A DNA stretch of 49,085 bases, taken from Bdellovibrionales bacterium (GTDB taxonomy: Bacteria; Bdellovibrionota; FAC87; UBA2466). The translations under genes were made by a program, and so were the position numbers. Positions 21,620-31,948 of this stretch are shown one piece after another. The DNA lies in the NCBI GenBank assembly GCA_005776395.1, contig SXPJ01000032.1, positions 1 through 49,085 on the forward strand, read 5' to 3'. Position 1 is the first letter of the stretch, and the number at the start of each line of letters is the position of its first letter. Below the pieces are notes generated by a model. The model was given only the letters and a program-made list of their open reading frames with translations, was not told the origin of the DNA and searched no databases.

Positions 21620-22516
21620 ATGGGCTCTATACAACACACAACTCATAAGCCTGAATGGCTTAAAATTCGCCCTCCTGGAGGAGAAAACTATTTGCGAATT
21701 AAAGAGCTTCTTCGAGGCTTAAAACTTCATACGGTTTGTGAAGAGGCTCGCTGTCCGAATGTGGCCGAGTGTTGGGGAGGGGGAACCGCAACCGTAATGT
21801 TGATGGGAGATACCTGCACACGTGCTTGTCGCTTTTGCCATGTAAAAAGTGGAAATCCCAAAGGGGTATTGGACATCAATGAGCCCGTTAATGTCGCAAG
21901 TGCGATTAAAGAACTTAAACTTCGTTATGTAGTTCTAACCTCGGTCGATAGAGATGATTTGCCGGATGGTGGGGCGGAACATTTTGCGCGAACTGTTGAA
22001 GAGATTAAAAAGCGAAGTCCTGAAACCTTAGTTGAGGTTTTAATCCCCGATTTTCAAGGGGATAAAAAAAGTGTGGAACGCATTTGTCTCTCAGGTGTTG
22101 ATGTCATAGCTCATAATATAGAAACGGTAGAGCGACTCACTTCGACGGTGCGTGATCGACGGTGCGGATATCAACAATCTCTAAATGTTCTTAAAAAAGT
22201 TAAAGATTATTTCCCTAAGATTTATACAAAATCATCTGTGATGATTGGGCTTGGAGAGAGCAAAGAGGAAGTTTTTAAGGCAATGGATGATTTGCGAGCT
22301 GTAGGAGTTCAGATTGTTACTTTCGGTCAATATTTGAGACCTACGACATGGCATTTGCCTGTTGAAGAATATATTCACCCAGATCTTTTCAAAGAATATG
22401 AAACAGTGGGTTTAGAAAAAGGATTTCTATGTGTCCCTTCAGGACCTTTGGTTAGAAGCTCCTATCGAGCGGCTGAAAAATTTCTTGAAGGACTTTTGCG
22501 ATCGAGGGCTCATTAA
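21620..22516 (+). CDS. lipA: Lipoyl synthase
   Basis: LipA inserts two sulfurs into the octanoyl chain on lipoyl domains. The 298-residue protein has the auxiliary-cluster cysteines CEEARCPNVAEC (Cys40, 45, 51), the radical SAM cluster CTRACRFC (Cys66, 70, 73) and the C-terminal RSSY whose serine ligates the auxiliary cluster. KPEWLKI close to the N-terminus matches the start of the conserved part, so the ATG at 21620 seems right despite the lack of a ribosome site. It heads a run that includes its substrate E2 and lipB. Confidence 0.96.
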   Translation: MGSIQHTTHKPEWLKIRPPGGENYLRIKELLRGLKLHTVCEEARCPNVAECWGGGTATVMLMGDTCTRACRFCHVKSGNPKGVLDINEPVNVASAIKELKLRYVVLTSVDRDDLPDGGAEHFARTVEEIKKRSPETLVEVLIPDFQGDKKSVERICLSGVDVIAHNIETVERLTSTVRDRRCGYQQSLNVLKKVKDYFPKIYTKSSVMIGLGESKEEVFKAMDDLRAVGVQIVTFGQYLRPTTWHLPVEEYIHPDLFKEYETVGLEKGFLCVPSGPLVRSSYRAAEKFLEGLLRSRAH

Positions 22517-22518
22517 CT

Positions 22519-23739
22519 ATGGAATCGGAAACAGATTTAATGAAGAAAAAAACTAAAAGCCAAATAACCGTAACAAAAAAGAAGCCGATCAAACCAGAAA
22601 AAGGTTTATTGGGCGGATCTGTTTTGAGAGAAGACTGTTATCGAATAATGAATGAAGATGGGACAGTTGATTCTAAAGCTGATCCAAAACTCGATAAAGA
22701 GATTCTTTTAAAAATGTATCGCAATATGGCCCTGACAAGAGCGTTTGATGAAAGAGGGATGATGTTGCAGAGACAAGGAAGAATTGGTTTTTACGTTCCG
22801 TCTTTCGGACAAGAAGCGATTCAAACCGGAACTGCGGCCACTCTTGAGAAAAAGGACTGGGTTTTTCCCTCTTACCGCGAGCCAGGAATTTTTCTGTACC
22901 GTGGAGCGGGGCTTTACGAAATGCTATGCAATTTATGGGGAAACAACGGAGATCTTTCCAAGGGAAGACAGATGCCTGTTCACTATAGTTTTCCTGATAT
23001 TAAAATGTTTAGCGTTTCAAGTCCTATTGCGACTCAATTGATTCAAGCTGTCGGCGCTGCGATGGCATCTAAAATTTCAAAAACAAAAGAGGTTGCTATT
23101 TCATATTGTGGAGATGGTGGAACTTCGGAAAATGATTTCCACACAGGGCTTACTTTTGCGGGAGTTTACAAAGCCCCCGCAGTTTTTATTATTACCAATA
23201 ATCAGTATGCGATCTCAGTCCCCTTTTCTAAACAGACAGGTGGAAAACGGATTGTAGATAAGGCAGTAGGCTATGGAATGCCTGGAATCGCTGTCGATGG
23301 CAATGATGCTTTAGCAGTCTATTTAGCAACCAAAGAAGCTGTAGATAGAGCTCGACGAGGTGAGGGCCCCTCACTCATTGAGTGTGTTACCTTCAGAATG
23401 GGACCCCATTCCTCTTCAGATGATCCCACTCGATATCGTGATGAGAAGTTGTATCAAGCTTGGTTAAAGAGAGATCCGATCAAGAGATTACGAACCTATT
23501 TAGAAAGCAAAAAGCTTTGGGATGAAAAAAAGGAAAAAGTTCTTCAAGAGGAGCTTAAAGCAAAGCTTGCGGAGGCGGTAGAGAAAGCAGAGGCACAACC
23601 TTTATCTGATCCCATGGATCTATTTGAAGATGTTTATGCGGAGCTGACACCACAGCTTAAAAAACAAAAAGCGGAACTTTTGCATGAAGTTGAGCTTAGA
23701 GGAAAGTTTGAAAATACCAGCGAGGCATTTCCACTTTAA
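22519..23739 (+). CDS. 2-oxoacid dehydrogenase E1 component, alpha subunit (pyruvate or branched-chain type)
   Basis: E1-alpha, with E1-beta, decarboxylates a 2-oxoacid using thiamine diphosphate. The 406-residue protein has a Lys-rich ~30-residue N-terminal tail, FGQEAIQTG, GKGRQMPIHY-like SKGRQMPVHY, SSPIATQL, and the ThDP motif starting GDGGTSEND (~198) and ending TNN (~228), then GPHSSSDDPTRYR. The SKGRQMPVHY, SSPIATQ and GDGGTSE-DFH details resemble branched-chain 2-oxoacid dehydrogenases, while the gene context suits pyruvate dehydrogenase. Substrate cannot be settled from sequence. It begins 2 nt after lipA. Confidence 0.88.
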   Translation: MESETDLMKKKTKSQITVTKKKPIKPEKGLLGGSVLREDCYRIMNEDGTVDSKADPKLDKEILLKMYRNMALTRAFDERGMMLQRQGRIGFYVPSFGQEAIQTGTAATLEKKDWVFPSYREPGIFLYRGAGLYEMLCNLWGNNGDLSKGRQMPVHYSFPDIKMFSVSSPIATQLIQAVGAAMASKISKTKEVAISYCGDGGTSENDFHTGLTFAGVYKAPAVFIITNNQYAISVPFSKQTGGKRIVDKAVGYGMPGIAVDGNDALAVYLATKEAVDRARRGEGPSLIECVTFRMGPHSSSDDPTRYRDEKLYQAWLKRDPIKRLRTYLESKKLWDEKKEKVLQEELKAKLAEAVEKAEAQPLSDPMDLFEDVYAELTPQLKKQKAELLHEVELRGKFENTSEAFPL

Positions 23740-23748
23740 GAGGCAAAT

Positions 23749-24723
23749 ATGGCGAATTTAACTTTAGTTCAAGCTGTTCGTGATGCGTTGATGTGTGAGA
23801 TGACTCATGATTCTCGAGTTGTTCTCATGGGAGAAGATGTCGGGGTTAACGGTGGAGTTTTTAGAGCCACTGAGGGATTACAAAAAGAGTTTGGAGAAGA
23901 GAGAGTTTTCGATACTCCTCTTAATGAAAGTGGAATTATTGGAATGGCCATGGGAATGGCAGTGAATGGATTAAGACCTGTTCCTGAAATTCAATTTATG
24001 GATTTCATCTATCCTGCATTCGATGAAATCGTGAGCGAAGTGGCTAAGATTCGTTATCGAAGCGGCGGAGGATTTACCTGCCCCATGGTGATTCGAACTC
24101 CTTACGGTGGCGGTATTCGTGGAGGGCATTATCACTCTCAAAGCTCAGAGGCCTATTTTATTCACACTCCAGGACTTAAAGTCGTTGTTCCCTCAAACCC
24201 TTACGATGCTAAGGGGCTCTTAATTAGTGCGATTCGAGGTGAAGATCCCACAATGTTTTTAGAGCCTAAGCGACTTTATCGTTCAATAAAAGGTGAGGTC
24301 CCAGAGGGAAGCTATACCGTTGAAATTGGAAAGGCCTCGGTAGTTCGTCCCGGAAAAGATGTGACCCTTCTTTGTTGGGGAGCCATGGTGCCAGTTTGTA
24401 TGAAGGCTGCAGAGCTTTGCGAGCCTCGTGGAGCCGACTGCGAAGTTATAGATCTCAGAACCTTAGCGCCTCTTGATGAAGAAAGAATTTTTGAATCGGT
24501 AAAAAAGACTGGAAGGGTTGTTATTGTTCACGAGGCTCCGAAAACTTGTGGCTTTGGAGCTGAACTTTCTGCCCTCATTAATGAAGAGGCGATTTTGTAT
24601 TTGGAAGCTCCTATCGTGAGAGTGACGGGGCTAGATACCCCGTTTCCATATGCCTTGGAGCATATTTATATGCCAGACGCCGAGCGAGTGGCTTTAGCGG
24701 TTGGAAAAGTAAAAAACTTTTAG
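23749..24723 (+). CDS. 2-oxoacid dehydrogenase E1 component, beta subunit
   Basis: This is the partner of the preceding E1-alpha. The 324-residue protein has the conserved MGEDVGVNGGVFRATEGL, TPLNESGIIGMAMGMA, EIQFMDFIYPAFDEI and C-terminal VTGLDTPFPYALEHIYMPD. Residues from this chain complete the thiamine diphosphate site. AGAGG precedes the ATG, and E2 follows 11 nt downstream. Length is normal for the family. Confidence 0.93.
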   Translation: MANLTLVQAVRDALMCEMTHDSRVVLMGEDVGVNGGVFRATEGLQKEFGEERVFDTPLNESGIIGMAMGMAVNGLRPVPEIQFMDFIYPAFDEIVSEVAKIRYRSGGGFTCPMVIRTPYGGGIRGGHYHSQSSEAYFIHTPGLKVVVPSNPYDAKGLLISAIRGEDPTMFLEPKRLYRSIKGEVPEGSYTVEIGKASVVRPGKDVTLLCWGAMVPVCMKAAELCEPRGADCEVIDLRTLAPLDEERIFESVKKTGRVVIVHEAPKTCGFGAELSALINEEAILYLEAPIVRVTGLDTPFPYALEHIYMPDAERVALAVGKVKNF

Positions 24724-24734
24724 AGGATAAAATA

Positions 24735-26009
24735 ATGGACTTTAAATTACCTGATATTGGAGAAGGTGTTCACGAGGGTGAAATTGTTAAGTGGCTGATA
24801 AAAACAGGAGATACTTTAGCTGAGGATCAACCCATGGTCGAAGTTATGACCGATAAAGCTACTGTCGAGATTCCATCTCCAGTCGCAGGAACTGTGGCTG
24901 AGCTTTTGGCGAGTGAAGGGCAGACGATTGAAGTAGGAAAGGTGATCATTCGAATTTCAGAAAACGGAAAACAGGCAGCTAAAAAACCGGCAGAAAAAAC
25001 GGAGGCCAAAACTGCTCTTGCTACAATCCCAGCTAAATCTATCGAGAGAATTGTAGAGCCAGTAGCGCCAGCAGAAGAGCCCATTCCTTATCATATTCTT
25101 TCAACGCCAGCGACCCGCAAGCTAGCCCGTGATTTAGGGGTGGATTTAAAAACTATAAAAGGAACAGGTCTTCAGGGGCGTGTCACCAAAATGGATGTTC
25201 AATTGGCTCACGAAGGACATCAAGCCGCAACACCTCGTTCATCTCATAATGTTGTAGCAGTTATGCCCTCAGTTTCTCCTCAAAGGTCCAGCGTTGCAAT
25301 CGGAGCTCGCGGAGCTTTGCAAGTCGTTCCTCTTAAAGGGATTAGAAAGAAAATTGCGGAGTCAATGGCTTACTCCAAACACACGGCAGCCCATTTTACT
25401 TATGTAGAAGAGGTGGACATGTCGGCCGTAGTGAAGTTACGAGCTTCAGCTCAAGAAGAGGCCCAAAAACGAGGCGTGAAACTTACCTACCTACCTTTTA
25501 TTATTAAGGCTTTGATCCCAGCCCTTATGGAATTTCCCTATTTGAACTCATCCTTAGATGATGAAAAGCAGGAGATTGTTTTAAAAGGTGATTACAATAT
25601 TGGCGTCGCAACCGATACCCCTAATGGTTTAATGGTGCCTGTGATTAAAGCCGCCGATCGAAAAAGCATTTGGGAGGTGGCAACCGAAATTCAACTGCTT
25701 TCTGAAAAGGCTCGAACTGGAAAAATTTCGCTTGAGGATCTTAAAGGCGGAACTTTCACGGTAACCAATGCCGGTTCTATTGGGGGCGTTTTAGCAACTC
25801 CAGTGATTAACCATCCTGAAGTAGCAATTTTGGGAGTGAACGCGATAAGAAAACGACCCGTCGTTAAGAATGATCAGATTGTAATTGGAGATGTGATGTT
25901 CTTATCATTGTCTGTGGATCATAGAGTTGTCGATGGAGCTGATGCTGCACGGTTTATGAATCGATTGATCTACTTTTTATCTGAACCCTCTCGATTGGTG
26001 TTTGCATGA
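24735..26009 (+). CDS. 2-oxoacid dehydrogenase E2 component (dihydrolipoamide acyltransferase)
   Basis: E2 forms the core of the complex and transfers the acyl group to CoA. The 424-residue protein has one lipoyl domain with the target Lys41 in VEVMTDKATVEIPSP, an Ala/Lys-rich linker, the E3-binding domain (~121-156, STPATRKLARDLGVDL and GRVTKMDV), a second linker, and the catalytic domain ending in DHRVVDG (His396, Asp400). Its stop overlaps the E3 start (ATGA). The lipoyl lysine would be served by LipB and LipA encoded in the same run. Confidence 0.93.
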   Translation: MDFKLPDIGEGVHEGEIVKWLIKTGDTLAEDQPMVEVMTDKATVEIPSPVAGTVAELLASEGQTIEVGKVIIRISENGKQAAKKPAEKTEAKTALATIPAKSIERIVEPVAPAEEPIPYHILSTPATRKLARDLGVDLKTIKGTGLQGRVTKMDVQLAHEGHQAATPRSSHNVVAVMPSVSPQRSSVAIGARGALQVVPLKGIRKKIAESMAYSKHTAAHFTYVEEVDMSAVVKLRASAQEEAQKRGVKLTYLPFIIKALIPALMEFPYLNSSLDDEKQEIVLKGDYNIGVATDTPNGLMVPVIKAADRKSIWEVATEIQLLSEKARTGKISLEDLKGGTFTVTNAGSIGGVLATPVINHPEVAILGVNAIRKRPVVKNDQIVIGDVMFLSLSVDHRVVDGADAARFMNRLIYFLSEPSRLVFA

Positions 26010-27430
26010 AAAATTTTGATGCTGTTGTGATAGGGGCTGGCCCAGGGGGATATCCCACAGCTATTCGTTTGGCTCAGTTAGGGCTTAAGACCGCTATTAT
26101 TGAAAAAGAAAGCTTCGGCGGAGTCTGTCTTAATGTAGGCTGCATTCCCTCTAAGGCTCTTATCTACGGGAGCTCTCAGTTTTGGAAAATGAAAAACGAG
26201 TCTGAAGAGATGGGAATTACCGTTAAGTCGGTGGACTGCAATTTAGAAAAGATGCAGGAGTGGAAGTCAGGCGTTGTAAAAAAACTGACGACAGGAGTTC
26301 AGGGGCTTTTAAAAGCAAATGGAGTTGAGATCATTAAGGGTACGGCCTCTTTTAAGGATAATAAAACCTTGGAAGTGGTTTCCGCTCAAAGTAAAGAAAC
26401 TGTAACTGCTACAAATTTTGTGATTGCTACGGGATCGAGAGTTGTTCAGATTCCTACTCTTCCATTTAATGGCAAAAATATTATAAGTTCTACCGAAGCT
26501 CTTTCTTTGAAAGAACTCCCTAAAGAGATGATTGTCATTGGGGGGGGATTTATTGGAATTGAGATTGGAACAGTTTACGCAAAGCTAGGATCAAAAGTAA
26601 CTATCGTTGAGGCCTTAGATCAGCTTTTAGCGACTGTGGATAGTGAGCTTGTAAGTGTAGTTCAAAAGAAGATGAAGCACTTTGGAATTACTGTTCATAC
26701 GGGAGCTAAAGCGCTCGGGATTAAAGAGAAAGAGGCTGCAAAAGCGAGTAAACTTAACTTGGAAATTGAGACCAAAGATAAAACCAAGCAAACTCTTAGT
26801 GCTGATATCATCTTGGTTTCTGTGGGAAGAAAACCCAATTCCGATAATTTGGGGCTAGAGAAAATTGGGATCAAAATGGATTCCAGGGGAAATATTCTAA
26901 CGAACAATCAAAGCTTAACAAATCTATCGAATATTTATGCTATTGGGGATGTGGCAGGGGCTCCACAGCTCGCCCATAGAGCCACGATGGATGGTCTTCT
27001 TGTGGCAGAATGTGTTGCCGGTAAAAAATCCTTTAAGGATTATAAAACAGTTCCTTGGGCTGTATTTTGTGATCCAGAGATCGCAGTTGCAGGACTCACC
27101 GAAAAAGAGGCTACGGAAAAAGGGTTTAAGATTAAGGTGGGCCGATTTCCATTTGCTGCCTCCGGAAAAGCTTTAGCGATGAATGAGTCAGAGGGCATGG
27201 CTAAGATTGTTATCGATGAAAAAACAGAGGCTATTTTAGGTGTTCATATCGTCGGGCCTGAAGCCGCAAACTTAATTGCAGAGGCAGCTCTTGCGATTGA
27301 AATGGGGGCTACAGTTGAGGATCTAGTAAGAACCATTCATACCCATCCGACATTACCCGAAGTGATGCCTGAAGCAGTTGAGGCCGCTTTTTATAAAGCC
27401 ATTCATATTTATAAACCTAAACGAGGATAA
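26006..27430 (+). CDS. lpdA: Dihydrolipoyl dehydrogenase (E3)
   Basis: E3 reoxidises the dihydrolipoyl arm of E2 and reduces NAD+. The 474-residue flavoprotein has the FAD motif VVIGAGPGGYPTAIRLA, the redox disulfide GGVCLNVGCIPSKAL (Cys41, Cys46), the NAD site IVIGGGFIGIEIGTVYAKLG, NIYAIGDVAG and the C-terminal active-site base HTHPTLPEVMPEA. It overlaps E2 by 4 nt and is followed by lipB. Confidence 0.96.
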   Translation: MKNFDAVVIGAGPGGYPTAIRLAQLGLKTAIIEKESFGGVCLNVGCIPSKALIYGSSQFWKMKNESEEMGITVKSVDCNLEKMQEWKSGVVKKLTTGVQGLLKANGVEIIKGTASFKDNKTLEVVSAQSKETVTATNFVIATGSRVVQIPTLPFNGKNIISSTEALSLKELPKEMIVIGGGFIGIEIGTVYAKLGSKVTIVEALDQLLATVDSELVSVVQKKMKHFGITVHTGAKALGIKEKEAAKASKLNLEIETKDKTKQTLSADIILVSVGRKPNSDNLGLEKIGIKMDSRGNILTNNQSLTNLSNIYAIGDVAGAPQLAHRATMDGLLVAECVAGKKSFKDYKTVPWAVFCDPEIAVAGLTEKEATEKGFKIKVGRFPFAASGKALAMNESEGMAKIVIDEKTEAILGVHIVGPEAANLIAEAALAIEMGATVEDLVRTIHTHPTLPEVMPEAVEAAFYKAIHIYKPKRG

Positions 27431-27431
27431 A

Positions 27432-28130
27432 GTGCCTATAGCGTTCTTTGAAATCGATGATCGCGGAGTGAACGATTACAATGAGACCTACTACACCCAG
27501 CTGGATGTTATTAATAAAAAAAAGAAGAGCGATTACTATCCTGATCGATTGATTTTGGTTGAGCACCCTGATGTTTACACTTTCGGGAGAAAGAGCAAAA
27601 ACTCAATTCCTTGGAATTTAAAAAATGCATTTGCCATTGAACGTGGGGGTGAAGCCACCTTCCACAATCCGGGGCAATTGGTTTGTTATCCCCTTCTCAC
27701 TTTAAGAGAGGGAGAAAAAGATGTTCATTTACACTTAAGACGACTTGAAGAAACGATTATTTCAGTGCTTAAAGAGTTTGGGAGTTTGGGTGAGCGTCGA
27801 ACTGGGGCAACTGGAGTTTGGATAGTGGGAAAACAAAAGAAAATCGCGAGTATTGGAATAGCGATTTCTTCCTGGGTTACATTTCACGGGGTGGCTTTGA
27901 ATGTGAACAATGATCTTTCTGGGTTTTCAAAAATAGATCCTTGTGGATTTAATGCAAATGTTATGACCTCTATGAAGGAAGAGCTTGGGGATAGTTGTCC
28001 TGCGATTGAAATCTTGAAGAAAAGTTTTATCAAGCATTTCTCGACACAGTTTAATCGTTTACCTGCTGAGATTGCACTGAATCTAAAAAAAAGAGAGACC
28101 ACAAAAGTTGATAAACAACTAGTAGAGTAA
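27432..28130 (+). CDS. lipB: Octanoyltransferase LipB
   Basis: LipB moves octanoate from acyl carrier protein to lipoyl domains, the step before LipA. From GTG 27432 the protein has 232 residues: RGGEATFHNPGQL (family RGG-x2-T-x-HGPGQ), KIASIGIAISSWVTFHGVALNV with the catalytic Lys137, and DPCGF with Cys171. GAGGA lies 5 nt before the GTG; a longer frame reaching back to 27378 lies inside lpdA. The usual HGPGQ is HNPGQ here. Sits 1 nt after lpdA. Confidence 0.93.
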   Translation: MPIAFFEIDDRGVNDYNETYYTQLDVINKKKKSDYYPDRLILVEHPDVYTFGRKSKNSIPWNLKNAFAIERGGEATFHNPGQLVCYPLLTLREGEKDVHLHLRRLEETIISVLKEFGSLGERRTGATGVWIVGKQKKIASIGIAISSWVTFHGVALNVNNDLSGFSKIDPCGFNANVMTSMKEELGDSCPAIEILKKSFIKHFSTQFNRLPAEIALNLKKRETTKVDKQLVE

Positions 28131-28133
28131 TCT

Positions 28134-28916
28134 ATGAAAAAACCGCCACTTTTTTTTATGGGGAATTTGCCGCACTCTACCCCCAAAGAAGCCATTGCTT
28201 TTGTAAAGCAACATTCAATTCACCTCCCCTTTCTTCCCCAGCTATCGGAAAGCAACCCCCAGGAGGATATGATTGGCCAAGTTTTAAGAGGAATAGATCT
28301 TGGATTTTGGGATGAGCGAGCTTCGAGTTGTTTGGAGCTTTTTCAGAATGAGTTTGTCGATGCTCCTCGGTTTAAAATTCAGATCGCAGGCCCCTATACC
28401 GTGGCTCGATCAATGAGTGCAAAGTTCGTAGATCTAGCTCCTCTTTGGGTTGGATTTTGGAAGGGGTTAAGGAAGCAACTTAATGAGGCGGCTTTTAAAG
28501 GGGAACTTTGGCTTCAATTGGATGAACCCTTCTGGTCGAAAGAGTCGGAGTATATGGCGGATGGCTACACCGCTTTTTTACAGGCAGTAAAGGAGATAGG
28601 AGGGGATATTAAACTGGGAATCCATAGCTGCGCCGCTAAAAGACCGAAGTTATTTTCCGACCATATTAGACTGCTCGACTTTTTTGCTTTTGATTTTACT
28701 AAGGAGCCCCTTTCTCCATTCGAGGAGGAAACTTGGAAGGGGCTACTACGGGAGGAGGGGAAAATTCTTGTTTATGGTGGTCTTGAAGTTAAAGGCAAGC
28801 CAATCATGACCCCATTATCTCAAGAGCCCCATTTTTGGATTTCTGCCCCCTGTGGATTTTACGGATGGGATGTTCAGGAGTTAGAAAAGCAGGTTATGGA
28901 ATGGGAGAAGCAATAG
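28134..28916 (+). CDS. MetE-like TIM-barrel protein, probable zinc methyltransferase fold
   Basis: I cannot name this gene. The 260-residue protein has the layout of the catalytic half of cobalamin-independent methionine synthase or uroporphyrinogen decarboxylase-like barrels: LPFLPQL near the start, RFKIQIAGPYTVA, LWLQLDEPFW, IHSCA and SAPCGFYGW. His164, Cys166 and Cys240 fall where MetE has its zinc ligands, with Asp187 where MetE has Glu. It is much shorter than MetE (~750) and lacks its N-terminal half. It starts 3 nt after lipB, so it is probably co-expressed with the lipoate genes. Substrate is unknown. Confidence 0.7.
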   Translation: MKKPPLFFMGNLPHSTPKEAIAFVKQHSIHLPFLPQLSESNPQEDMIGQVLRGIDLGFWDERASSCLELFQNEFVDAPRFKIQIAGPYTVARSMSAKFVDLAPLWVGFWKGLRKQLNEAAFKGELWLQLDEPFWSKESEYMADGYTAFLQAVKEIGGDIKLGIHSCAAKRPKLFSDHIRLLDFFAFDFTKEPLSPFEEETWKGLLREEGKILVYGGLEVKGKPIMTPLSQEPHFWISAPCGFYGWDVQELEKQVMEWEKQ

Positions 28917-28959: not shown

Positions 28960-29319
28960 ATGGAAAAGAGACAAGGCAATCCAGCAGAAGGCAAAGCTGA
29001 ACGAAAAAAACTACCCCGTTCCTATGCTGTAATTGATCAGCGTGGATGTACGGGTTGTCACGCCTGTATTCCTGTTTGCCCAGTAGACTGTATTGAACAG
29101 GTTCCCGGGGCTGAACATCCAGACTTCATGAGATTGGTTGAAGTTGATCAAGATCGTTGCATTGGTTGCGAAGCCTGTGCAAAAATTTGTCCATGGGAAA
29201 CCATTTTTATGATCCAGCCGACAGAGTTAGATCAAAAAGCTAAAGAGTGGACAGTTCGTTCCATTATGTATTCCGATCTTGGCGACAACGCTAAAAAGAA
29301 AACCGGAACCGACGAATAA
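28960..29319 (+). CDS. Ferredoxin-like protein with two [4Fe-4S] clusters
   Basis: The 119-residue protein carries two complete four-cysteine motifs: Cys30, 33, 36, 40 (CTGCHACIPVCP) and Cys67, 70, 73, 77 (CIGCEACAKICP), so it can hold two [4Fe-4S] clusters. It has a basic N-terminal tail of ~20 residues and a ~40-residue C-terminal extension, beyond the ~60 residues of a minimal ferredoxin. No signal peptide or membrane span is visible, so it is probably a cytoplasmic electron carrier. It is 43 nt downstream of the MetE-like gene, without a strong ribosome site. Confidence 0.85.
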   Translation: MEKRQGNPAEGKAERKKLPRSYAVIDQRGCTGCHACIPVCPVDCIEQVPGAEHPDFMRLVEVDQDRCIGCEACAKICPWETIFMIQPTELDQKAKEWTVRSIMYSDLGDNAKKKTGTDE

Positions 29320-29650: not shown

Positions 29651-30322
29651 ATTAAATTACCTAATGAATACCTGCATAGACGGACTATTGTGAAACATAA
29701 AACTTGAAGACCGGAGTGTACTAGTTTTTATTTCATTTTGGTCGACATTTTTCATATAAAGCCCCTGTTTATGGCATAACGGGTCAATGTCGTCAATGAA
29801 CATAGCCTCACGATTGACTAAGCCTAACCCATTAAAAGAATTAGATAAAATATCGCTTTGTCATCGCACTGTAATTGAAGCGCTAGGGTTAAAACGGGGT
29901 AATTAGAGCTTCTGTGGCGAGAGACTAACTTACTGATGTTGAGATTGCATTGAGTTGTTTACGATGGCTCTTTAGGGAGCTTTGTTATTAAAATTCTTAA
30001 GAAAAATACCGTATACCAAAATAGAAACTTTAACTGTCAAAACTTCTAACAGCTATTATTTCAGGTGGGACTTTTAAAAAAATACAAAGCATTTCAAAGA
30101 GCTATATTATTTTTTGCGCAGGATTGCTCATAAGATTAACACCCTCTCAAAAACCCCTCTTTTTGAATACATCCCGGTTTTTTAACGGCCCCGCACAAAA
30201 GCGTTACTGGAACACCCATTGCAACCTTAACAACAAGTAGTTCTATAAGTGTATTTTGTGGAGGAGTGAGAAGAGACTTAAGGCTCTCTCAATTTTAAGT
30301 ATTTGTGAAAGCGGGGATGAAG
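29651..30322. other. Long intergenic region at a change of gene direction
   Basis: This is the longest gap in the window (672 bp). It should hold the ferredoxin promoter (minus) and the promoter of the secreted protein gene (plus), but I see no clear -35/-10 pair. A 39-codon frame at 29787-29906 has no ribosome site and no recognisable product. Several T- and A-runs occur, and a GGAGGAG at about 30260-30266 is not followed by a start at usable distance. No tRNA, CRISPR or insertion-sequence end is visible. Confidence 0.5.
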
Positions 30323-31948
30323 ATGAAACAGTATCAATTAACGGTAGCCGGGCTAATCATGCTGTGTTGTTTAAATACAGTTCAATTGAGCTTTGGAGAA
30401 AGCACTCAAAACCACGATAACAATAACAGCGGGTCTAGTTTAAGTGGTGCGGGGAGTCGCCCTGCTAGTGACAATCAAAAAATTTCTGAAAACTTTGATA
30501 GGCTCATTCAAACTTTAGCAGGCTTCAATCAGGGAGCCACCATTGTTTATAATTTAAAGAAATTCTCTAGCTCAGAAGTCTCTTCGATTACTTTAGACAA
30601 TCAGAAAATAGTAGAGCTTAAGAAATCAATTGAAGCTGTAAAAAACTATGCGGAAAAACTTAAGAAGTGTGGAGAATCTGCAACCGAGGATAGAGTTTCC
30701 TTTGAGTTATTAAAAACACTCAATGATTTTATAACCTTTATAGTGGAGCAAAAAGCGGTCGGTAACTTTACTCCGAAAGGAACTTTGATTGATAAAGAGA
30801 TCAATACCTTTGTAATCAGAGTTCAGAGGGCGTTAGAGGAAAAAGCAACTAAGTTTAAGAACGATGTGAACTTTTTCGAAAAGGCTGACAAGGAACTTAA
30901 TACACAGTTAGTAGTGATAGCGAAACTATTACAGGGGGGATCTTGGGATAGGACCGTATTTGATGAAGAGAAGGTCAAAGAAGATCTCACAAGAAAAGCT
31001 ATTAGAGATGCTAATAAGGATACAAAAATGTGTCGGTTAGAAGGTGGAGCACAAGAGAGTGTTCCAAACCAGCCTGCGCCTCCTACATTAAGTCCTGCCG
31101 TTCCTGCCGTTCCTGCCGTTCCTGCCGTTCCTGTCGTTCCTGTCGTTCCTGCCGTTCCTGCCGTTCCTGCCGTTCCTGCCGTTCCTGTCGTTCCTGCCGT
31201 TCCTGCCGTTCCTCCTCTAGATCCTTCCGGCGGAGGGTTTGTAAGTACCCAGTTAAGAGATGCTTTAGATGCTCTTCGAAGAGCTGAAGATGATAGGCTC
31301 CGTGAGCGTCAACAACAAGATAAGCTCGTGAGAAGACTGTTAGATCAAGAGAACAGAAACGGTGATCAGGCCTTAAAAGCACTTCAAGGGGCTTTGGCTT
31401 CATCGCAACGGCCGAATGTTTCTCGAGGAAATTCGGAAGGGCCTCAAATTAGCCCTTCTCTAAGTATTCCTCCGAGTCAACAACAGCCTTTACCGCAGAT
31501 GCCTCCGTTTCAAATGCCACCTCCTCCCCCGCCATTGCCTTTGGGTGCGCTGATGAATAGTGGCCCTTCACAACCTATTATTCCCTATACGCCAAGTCGA
31601 TTTAATGATGACATTCCAAGGCCGGCAGCACCGGTTCAACCGGATCCCTCAACCTCGGCTCTATTGCAAAGCATGCAGCAGCAGAACCAGATGTTCCAGC
31701 AGATGATGATGGGGCGTTACCCTTATATGGGAAATGGAGTTCAAAATGTGAATGGAGCTGGAAATGTTGGGCAAGCTCTTCAAAACTTTGGGGGCGGGCT
31801 ACGATATAGCACAGGTGGTGCGACCGGTAGAGGGCCGAGACTTCTTCCTTCTCGATTTAGAGGAAATGCCAGGGGTGGAATTCAAGGTAGAATGAGTACT
31901 AATCCCGTTGCTAGAACTGCAATTCCCTCAAGAATAGGTCGCCGATAA
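30323..31948 (+). CDS. Secreted low-complexity protein with Pro-Ala-Val tandem repeat
   Basis: Function unknown. From ATG 30323 (GGGG 6 nt upstream; GTG 30305 and ATG 30317 are alternatives) the product has 541 residues. Residues 1-25 form a Sec signal peptide (MKQYQLTVAGLIMLCCL, then SFG-ES). Then come a helical, charged domain (~50-230), 13 copies of Pro-Ala/Val-Val (258-296) encoded by a 9-bp minisatellite, an Arg/Gln-rich helix (~305-355), a Pro-rich tract with PPPPPP, a Gln/Met stretch (MQQQNQMFQQMMMG) and a basic Gly/Arg-rich tail. This looks like an envelope or periplasmic scaffold. No enzymatic motif is seen. Confidence 0.8.
   Translation: MKQYQLTVAGLIMLCCLNTVQLSFGESTQNHDNNNSGSSLSGAGSRPASDNQKISENFDRLIQTLAGFNQGATIVYNLKKFSSSEVSSITLDNQKIVELKKSIEAVKNYAEKLKKCGESATEDRVSFELLKTLNDFITFIVEQKAVGNFTPKGTLIDKEINTFVIRVQRALEEKATKFKNDVNFFEKADKELNTQLVVIAKLLQGGSWDRTVFDEEKVKEDLTRKAIRDANKDTKMCRLEGGAQESVPNQPAPPTLSPAVPAVPAVPAVPVVPVVPAVPAVPAVPAVPVVPAVPAVPPLDPSGGGFVSTQLRDALDALRRAEDDRLRERQQQDKLVRRLLDQENRNGDQALKALQGALASSQRPNVSRGNSEGPQISPSLSIPPSQQQPLPQMPPFQMPPPPPPLPLGALMNSGPSQPIIPYTPSRFNDDIPRPAAPVQPDPSTSALLQSMQQQNQMFQQMMMGRYPYMGNGVQNVNGAGNVGQALQNFGGGLRYSTGGATGRGPRLLPSRFRGNARGGIQGRMSTNPVARTAIPSRIGRR
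31094..31210 (+). repeat. 9-bp minisatellite, 13 tandem copies
   Basis: The unit is CCTGCCGTT, with three of the 13 units reading CCTGTCGTT (copies 5, 6 and 11). The array is 117 bp, uninterrupted, and encodes Pro-Ala-Val or Pro-Val-Val. Because the unit is three codons long, gain or loss of copies changes protein length without shifting frame. The repeat also keeps other frames open on both strands, which creates spurious frames such as Cys-Arg-Ser and Glu-Arg-Gln repeats. Confidence 0.95.

Follow-up and report, generated by a model that had tools for sequence, protein, structure and literature searches.

The window, by which we mean the whole 49,085-nucleotide stretch of contig SXPJ01000032.1 from a Bdellovibrionales bacterium, encodes a small MetE-like protein, P0001, that closes a same-strand run of lipA, pdhA, pdhB, pdhC, lpd and lipB (Table 1). 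The preliminary description of this DNA had placed the gene directly after lipB and ahead of a ferredoxin gene, and this arrangement was confirmed: P0001 starts 3 bp past the lipB stop codon and ends 43 bp ahead of the ferredoxin start. Scans for a promoter or terminator separating P0001 from the lipA–lipB run gave nothing above chance, and no riboswitch was found near metH or the window operon at the Rfam gathering thresholds. In comparisons with other species of the genus, P0001 showed a dN of 0.23–0.29 with saturated dS, indicating that the gene is under purifying selection. Further along the window, a 547-residue ORF (30305–31948) contains a long run of Pro-Ala-Val-Pro-type repeats at positions 31030–31290, where other frames are also open.

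Table 1. Genes and predicted active-site codons at the P0001 locus on SXPJ01000032.1.
Feature	Position	Strand	Remark
lipA-pdhA-pdhB-pdhC-lpd run upstream of lipB	21620..27430	+	names from ORF translations
lipB, octanoyltransferase	27378..28130	+	upstream neighbour, context only; TIGR00214, E 3.9e-46
P0001, MetE/MesB-like single zinc barrel	28134..28916	+	260 aa, ATG start
codon Asn11	28164..28166	+	position of the homocysteine-carboxylate Ser (E. coli Ser433)
codon Glu44	28263..28265	+	candidate for E. coli Glu484 (amino-group contact); alignment ambiguous
codons Asp130-Glu131-Pro132	28521..28529	+	Asp130 corresponds to E. coli Asp599; invariant
codons His164-Ser165-Cys166	28623..28631	+	predicted zinc ligands His164 and Cys166, end of strand 5
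codon Asp187	28692..28694	+	predicted zinc ligand, end of strand 6; corresponds to E. coli MetE Glu665
codon Cys240	28851..28853	+	predicted zinc ligand, after strand 8
2x[4Fe-4S] ferredoxin	28960..29319	+	downstream neighbour

A Pfam search with P0001 gave no match, including to Meth_synt_2 (PF01717), and NCBIfam returned only a weak match to the methionine synthase model PRK04326 (E 1.3e-7), far under the cut-off. The single sequence found no relative in the PDB by phmmer; profiles were needed for detection, and a profile search against structures then identified MetE (E 2.8e-9) and MesD (PDB 3rpd, E 1.8e-5). The AlphaFold2 model of P0001, calculated from a 57-sequence alignment, has a mean pLDDT of 93.3 and a pTM of 0.91 and features eight barrel strands. 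Foldseek ranked MetE (PDB 2nq5, 1u1h and 3l7r) and MesD (PDB 3rpd) highest, with the homocysteine domains of MetH and BHMT at lower ranks, the TM-scores being only about 0.5; a long, metH-linked relative (349 residues, model pLDDT 93.8) matched MetE better than P0001 did. The modelled (beta-alpha)8 fold is thus nearest to the MetE catalytic barrel, and P0001 comprises this barrel only, without the N-terminal folate barrel of canonical MetE, in agreement with the preliminary description. Its suggestion of a distinct subgroup within the MetE superfamily is likewise supported, this subgroup lying below Pfam detection. The fold and metal site are very probably of the MetE type.

The predicted zinc site was located by hhalign (96.8%) against the C-terminal halves of true MetE proteins. 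His164, Cys166, Asp187 and Cys240 paired with the His, Cys, Glu and Cys of MetE, and Asp130 paired with Asp599. In the model the four putative ligands lie where strands 5, 6 and 8 end, as do the zinc ligands of Thermotoga maritima MetE (PMC539065). Across the 57 sequences of the conservation set, in which the relatives share 15–70% identity with P0001, the sole invariant columns correspond to Asp130, His164, Cys166, Asp187, Cys240 and Gly241. Invariance of the ligands and of Asp130 is the pattern expected of a working zinc methyltransferase, and the earlier assignment of these residues to the MetE zinc positions holds.

P0001 therefore carries the His-x-Cys motif, an acidic residue and a Cys at the zinc positions, with Asp187 in place of the Glu that is the canonical third ligand of MetE. 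This zinc set had been regarded as altered, which overstates the case because Asp is the normal residue in the P0001 family and in MesB. Characterised MesB uses Asp as the third zinc ligand (PMC7857596, PMC7005905), and in the authors' view an enzyme with this Asp can still bind zinc and be active (PMC7857596). We consequently rejected the zinc set as a novelty of P0001, since the HCDC set is that of MesB. Position 11 is occupied by Ser in 55 of the 57 sequences and by Asn in P0001; the Ser at the E. coli Ser433 position binds the homocysteine carboxylate in MetE (PMC7857596). By this alignment, the odd residue of P0001 is Asn11, not Asp187.

We searched 369 genomes of the phylum and obtained matches in 65. 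Dropping the G038 match, which is a normal MetE, and counting both members of a genome that has two gives a family of 65 as well. Most members (41/65) adjoin a methionine synthase gene or sit one gene away from it. This gene is metH in 37 cases, 28 of them directly adjoining and 9 in the order metF–metH–small gene–MetE-like gene, and split metE in four. The window genome departs from this pattern, as its metH lies alone on contig 61. Members linked to split metE occur in genomes with no MetH match, and the split MetE genome G050 (90% complete) gave no confident B12-binding domain. Eleven members are located directly 3' of an iscR–cysteine desulfurase pair, seven are flanked by lipB and a ferredoxin gene, and five have none of the listed neighbours. 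The remaining member (G142) belongs to a CODH/ACS/CoFeSP cluster, where it follows a gene for a stand-alone homocysteine methyltransferase; this is likely a true MesB setting. Outside the phylum, plasmid-borne actinomycete relatives (L111, L112 and L113) follow cysteine desulfurase–mnmA, the Nocardia locus lacking an mnmA call; the neighbours are different for a relative from Desulfosarcina.

Several further features of these neighbourhoods were observed. The small gene that separates metH from the MetE-like gene (nine genomes; e.g., L068:5677-6159) encodes a protein of ~145 residues with no Pfam match. The iscR-linked gene for a class-V aminotransferase (cysteine desulfurase-like) often overlaps the MetE-like gene (L059:5147-7050, L054:3146-5073 and nine other loci). 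The CODH/ACS cluster of G142 (L109:2188-15464) contains a fused AcsB-AcsD, AcsC and RACo. The MetH activation domain is of two kinds in the phylum, one matching at ~1e-90 or better and the other at only ~1e-45; domains of the latter kind miss the first 30–45 model positions, and it is mainly these that are accompanied by long MetE-like genes.

The order lpd–lipB–P0001–fdx is conserved in all seven members of the P0001 subgroup, which come from two genera of one family and form a single clade (support 100/99). Linkage to lipA or lipB is confined to this clade among the 65 members, so conservation of the lipB neighbourhood holds within the clade and fails across the wider family. In G009, of the same family, and G014, of the same order, lipB is directly beside the ferredoxin gene with no insert, and the MetE-like gene adjoins metH. 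This indicates that P0001 moved or was inserted into its present position, and the site looks like the result of a relocation or insertion in an ancestor of the two genera, a derived or at least local arrangement. A lipoyl link as a family trait was rejected on the same evidence, and the functional tie to lipoyl chemistry that the gene order had suggested is not supported.

We also considered whether the lip clade arose simply by shortening of the long, metH-linked form present in its own family. The joint grouping was rejected (AU p 0.0007), which suggests that the lip clade may be a separate or acquired lineage; grouping with the G008 protein was not rejected (p 0.45), with long branches making any deep placement of the clade unsafe. 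The close relatives G002 and G013 are without both P0001 and a pdh-linked lipB and have only a distant lipB-like gene, for which either missing contigs or joint loss could account.

The window genome (98% complete) encodes MetH and MetF; it gave no match to Meth_synt_2 and none to CoFeSP (PF03599, AcsC/AcsD). MesX (PF08908) also had no match there, nor in the control genomes of the same search. A stand-alone PF02574 protein (MmuM/BHMT-type) was not found in 13 of 14 family genomes searched, the window genome included; G017 was not resolved.

Of the described proteins, MesB, or core-MetE, of Dehalococcoides mccartyi resembles P0001 in its single barrel, the lack of a folate domain, the HCDC ligands and the homocysteine-binding Asp (PMC7005905, PMC7857596). 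Going by the published description, MesB has 343 residues against the 260 of P0001, whose barrel is ~80 residues shorter. P0001 further differs in the Asn at the Ser433 position and in residing in a genome with MetF and MetH and without a CoFeSP match. MesB is, according to Price et al, always accompanied by CoFeSP subunits (PMC7857596), and P0001 is therefore not a MesB by that family's criteria. The same paper sets apart distant MesB-like proteins whose genomes contain other methionine synthases and whose function may differ (PMC7857596). P0001 and its relatives most likely belong among these proteins. Gene arrangements like those of the P0001 relatives, with metH, split metE or a cysteine desulfurase gene in the same operon, are not described for them in the part of PMC7857596 used here.

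MetE (PF01717) shares with P0001 the fold, the zinc-ligand positions and the Asp599 equivalent, but P0001 has no N-terminal folate barrel, carries Asp for Glu and falls below Pfam detection. MesD similarly matches in fold (PDB 3rpd), with P0001 differing by the Asp for Glu in its zinc set. A Tsukamurella relative, which we take to represent the Rv3015c family, has the HCDC set, Asp130 and a single barrel in common with P0001; it differs in its length (337 residues), its identity of only ~22% to P0001 and its location beside cysteine desulfurase–mnmA. The role of the Rv3015c-type single-domain MetE homologues of actinomycetes has been called unclear (PMC4428469).

Based on these comparisons, we propose that P0001 is an accessory zinc enzyme that methylates a thiol, most likely that of homocysteine, a reading to which we assign a probability of about 0.5. 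Both the catalysis and the homocysteine substrate are inferred. P0001 would belong to the HCDC (MesB-like) branch of the MetE superfamily and function as a zinc-dependent single barrel. Zinc coordinated by His164, Cys166, Asp187 and Cys240 would bind and activate the thiol of a small amino acid, most likely homocysteine, whereas Asp130 and probably also Glu44 would position the amino-acid substrate. The resulting thiolate would then be methylated by a donor whose binding needs no folate domain. P0001 would thus act beside the main methionine synthase, here MetH, and not replace it. Against this we count Asn11 in place of the carboxylate-binding Ser, the TM-scores of ~0.5 and a barrel shorter than that of MesB. 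Nor does homocysteine methylation explain why 11 members are linked to a desulfurase gene or why actinomycete relatives follow desulfurase–mnmA, and the seven lipB-linked members, being outside the metH neighbourhood, may have another function.

The main options for the methyl donor are a sulfonium compound, which we consider unlikely, and a corrinoid, which we consider slightly less likely again. As a salvage homocysteine methyltransferase in the role of MmuM, P0001 would use S-methylmethionine or damaged SAM. Such an activity would account for the missing folate domain and for a gene that occurs with MetH as well as with MetE, and is in line with the absence of stand-alone PF02574 proteins from 13 of the 14 genomes; however, the donor is a guess, a sulfonium site would be hypothetical too, and MmuM belongs to a different barrel family. 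Alternatively, a MesB-type core methionine synthase would have a corrinoid as its methyl donor, such as the one on the cobalamin domain of MetH. The HCDC set common to characterised MesB (PMC7857596, PMC7005905), the G142 member within its CODH/ACS/CoFeSP cluster and the metH genes adjoining most relatives are consistent with this option. The window genome, which encodes MetF and MetH but gave no match to CoFeSP, is nevertheless unlike a typical MesB genome, and the members in split MetE operons, with no MetH match and, in G050, no confident B12-binding domain, argue against a corrinoid donor family-wide.

A role in sulfur trafficking, with P0001 as the zinc-thiolate partner of a cysteine desulfurase or of an enzyme thiolating tRNA or a cofactor, appears more doubtful still. 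It would fit the members that directly follow the iscR–desulfurase pair, the actinomycete relatives 3' of cysteine desulfurase–mnmA and the lipA and lipB genes adjoining P0001 itself, but most members are accompanied by metH or metE instead, and the zinc and substrate residues match those of an amino-acid methyltransferase. That the desulfurase neighbourhood recurs in two phyla and is not accounted for by homocysteine methylation is the strongest reason to keep this alternative. The preliminary description had envisaged methyl transfer linked to lipoyl or sulfur chemistry, of which the sulfur part is compatible with our data and the lipoyl part is not supported. Methylation or demethylation of a lipoyl-pathway thiol, or other work with LipA, LipB or PDH, would concern this clade only; in spite of the gene order kept in all seven members, we regard it as highly improbable given the relatives without lipB linkage, the insert-free lipB–fdx pairs and the retained amino-acid-binding Asp130. 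Equally improbable, in our view, is that P0001 has no catalytic role and, with the fold retained, senses homocysteine or methionine or simply binds zinc. The short form, Asn11 and lack of a known donor site would suit such a protein, but the ligand set is complete in every sequence of the conservation set, unlike in the Chloroflexales MesB-like proteins, which have lost it (PMC7857596).

Returning to the accessory methyltransferase, we tentatively suggest, as a possibility well short of an even chance, that the widespread MetE-like family with HCDC ligands serves methionine and sulfur metabolism as a dedicated partner. Encoded beside the methionine synthase of the genome in question, be it MetH or split MetE, and in other lineages beside cysteine desulfurase or lipoate genes, it would carry out an unrecognised thiol-methyl reaction that needs neither folate nor corrinoid.

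The combination of a single MetE-type barrel with HCDC ligands is already known; the open-licence literature searched yielded no description of the 260-residue form, of its lipB–fdx position or of the family-wide operon pattern. Single-barrel MetE homologues are common, and their role has been called unclear (PMC4428469, PMC7857596). The occurrence of this family beside metH in some lineages and split metE in others offers a concrete, testable lead on that role and argues against a purely corrinoid-based one, and the lipB neighbourhood of P0001 is a caution against taking gene context for function.
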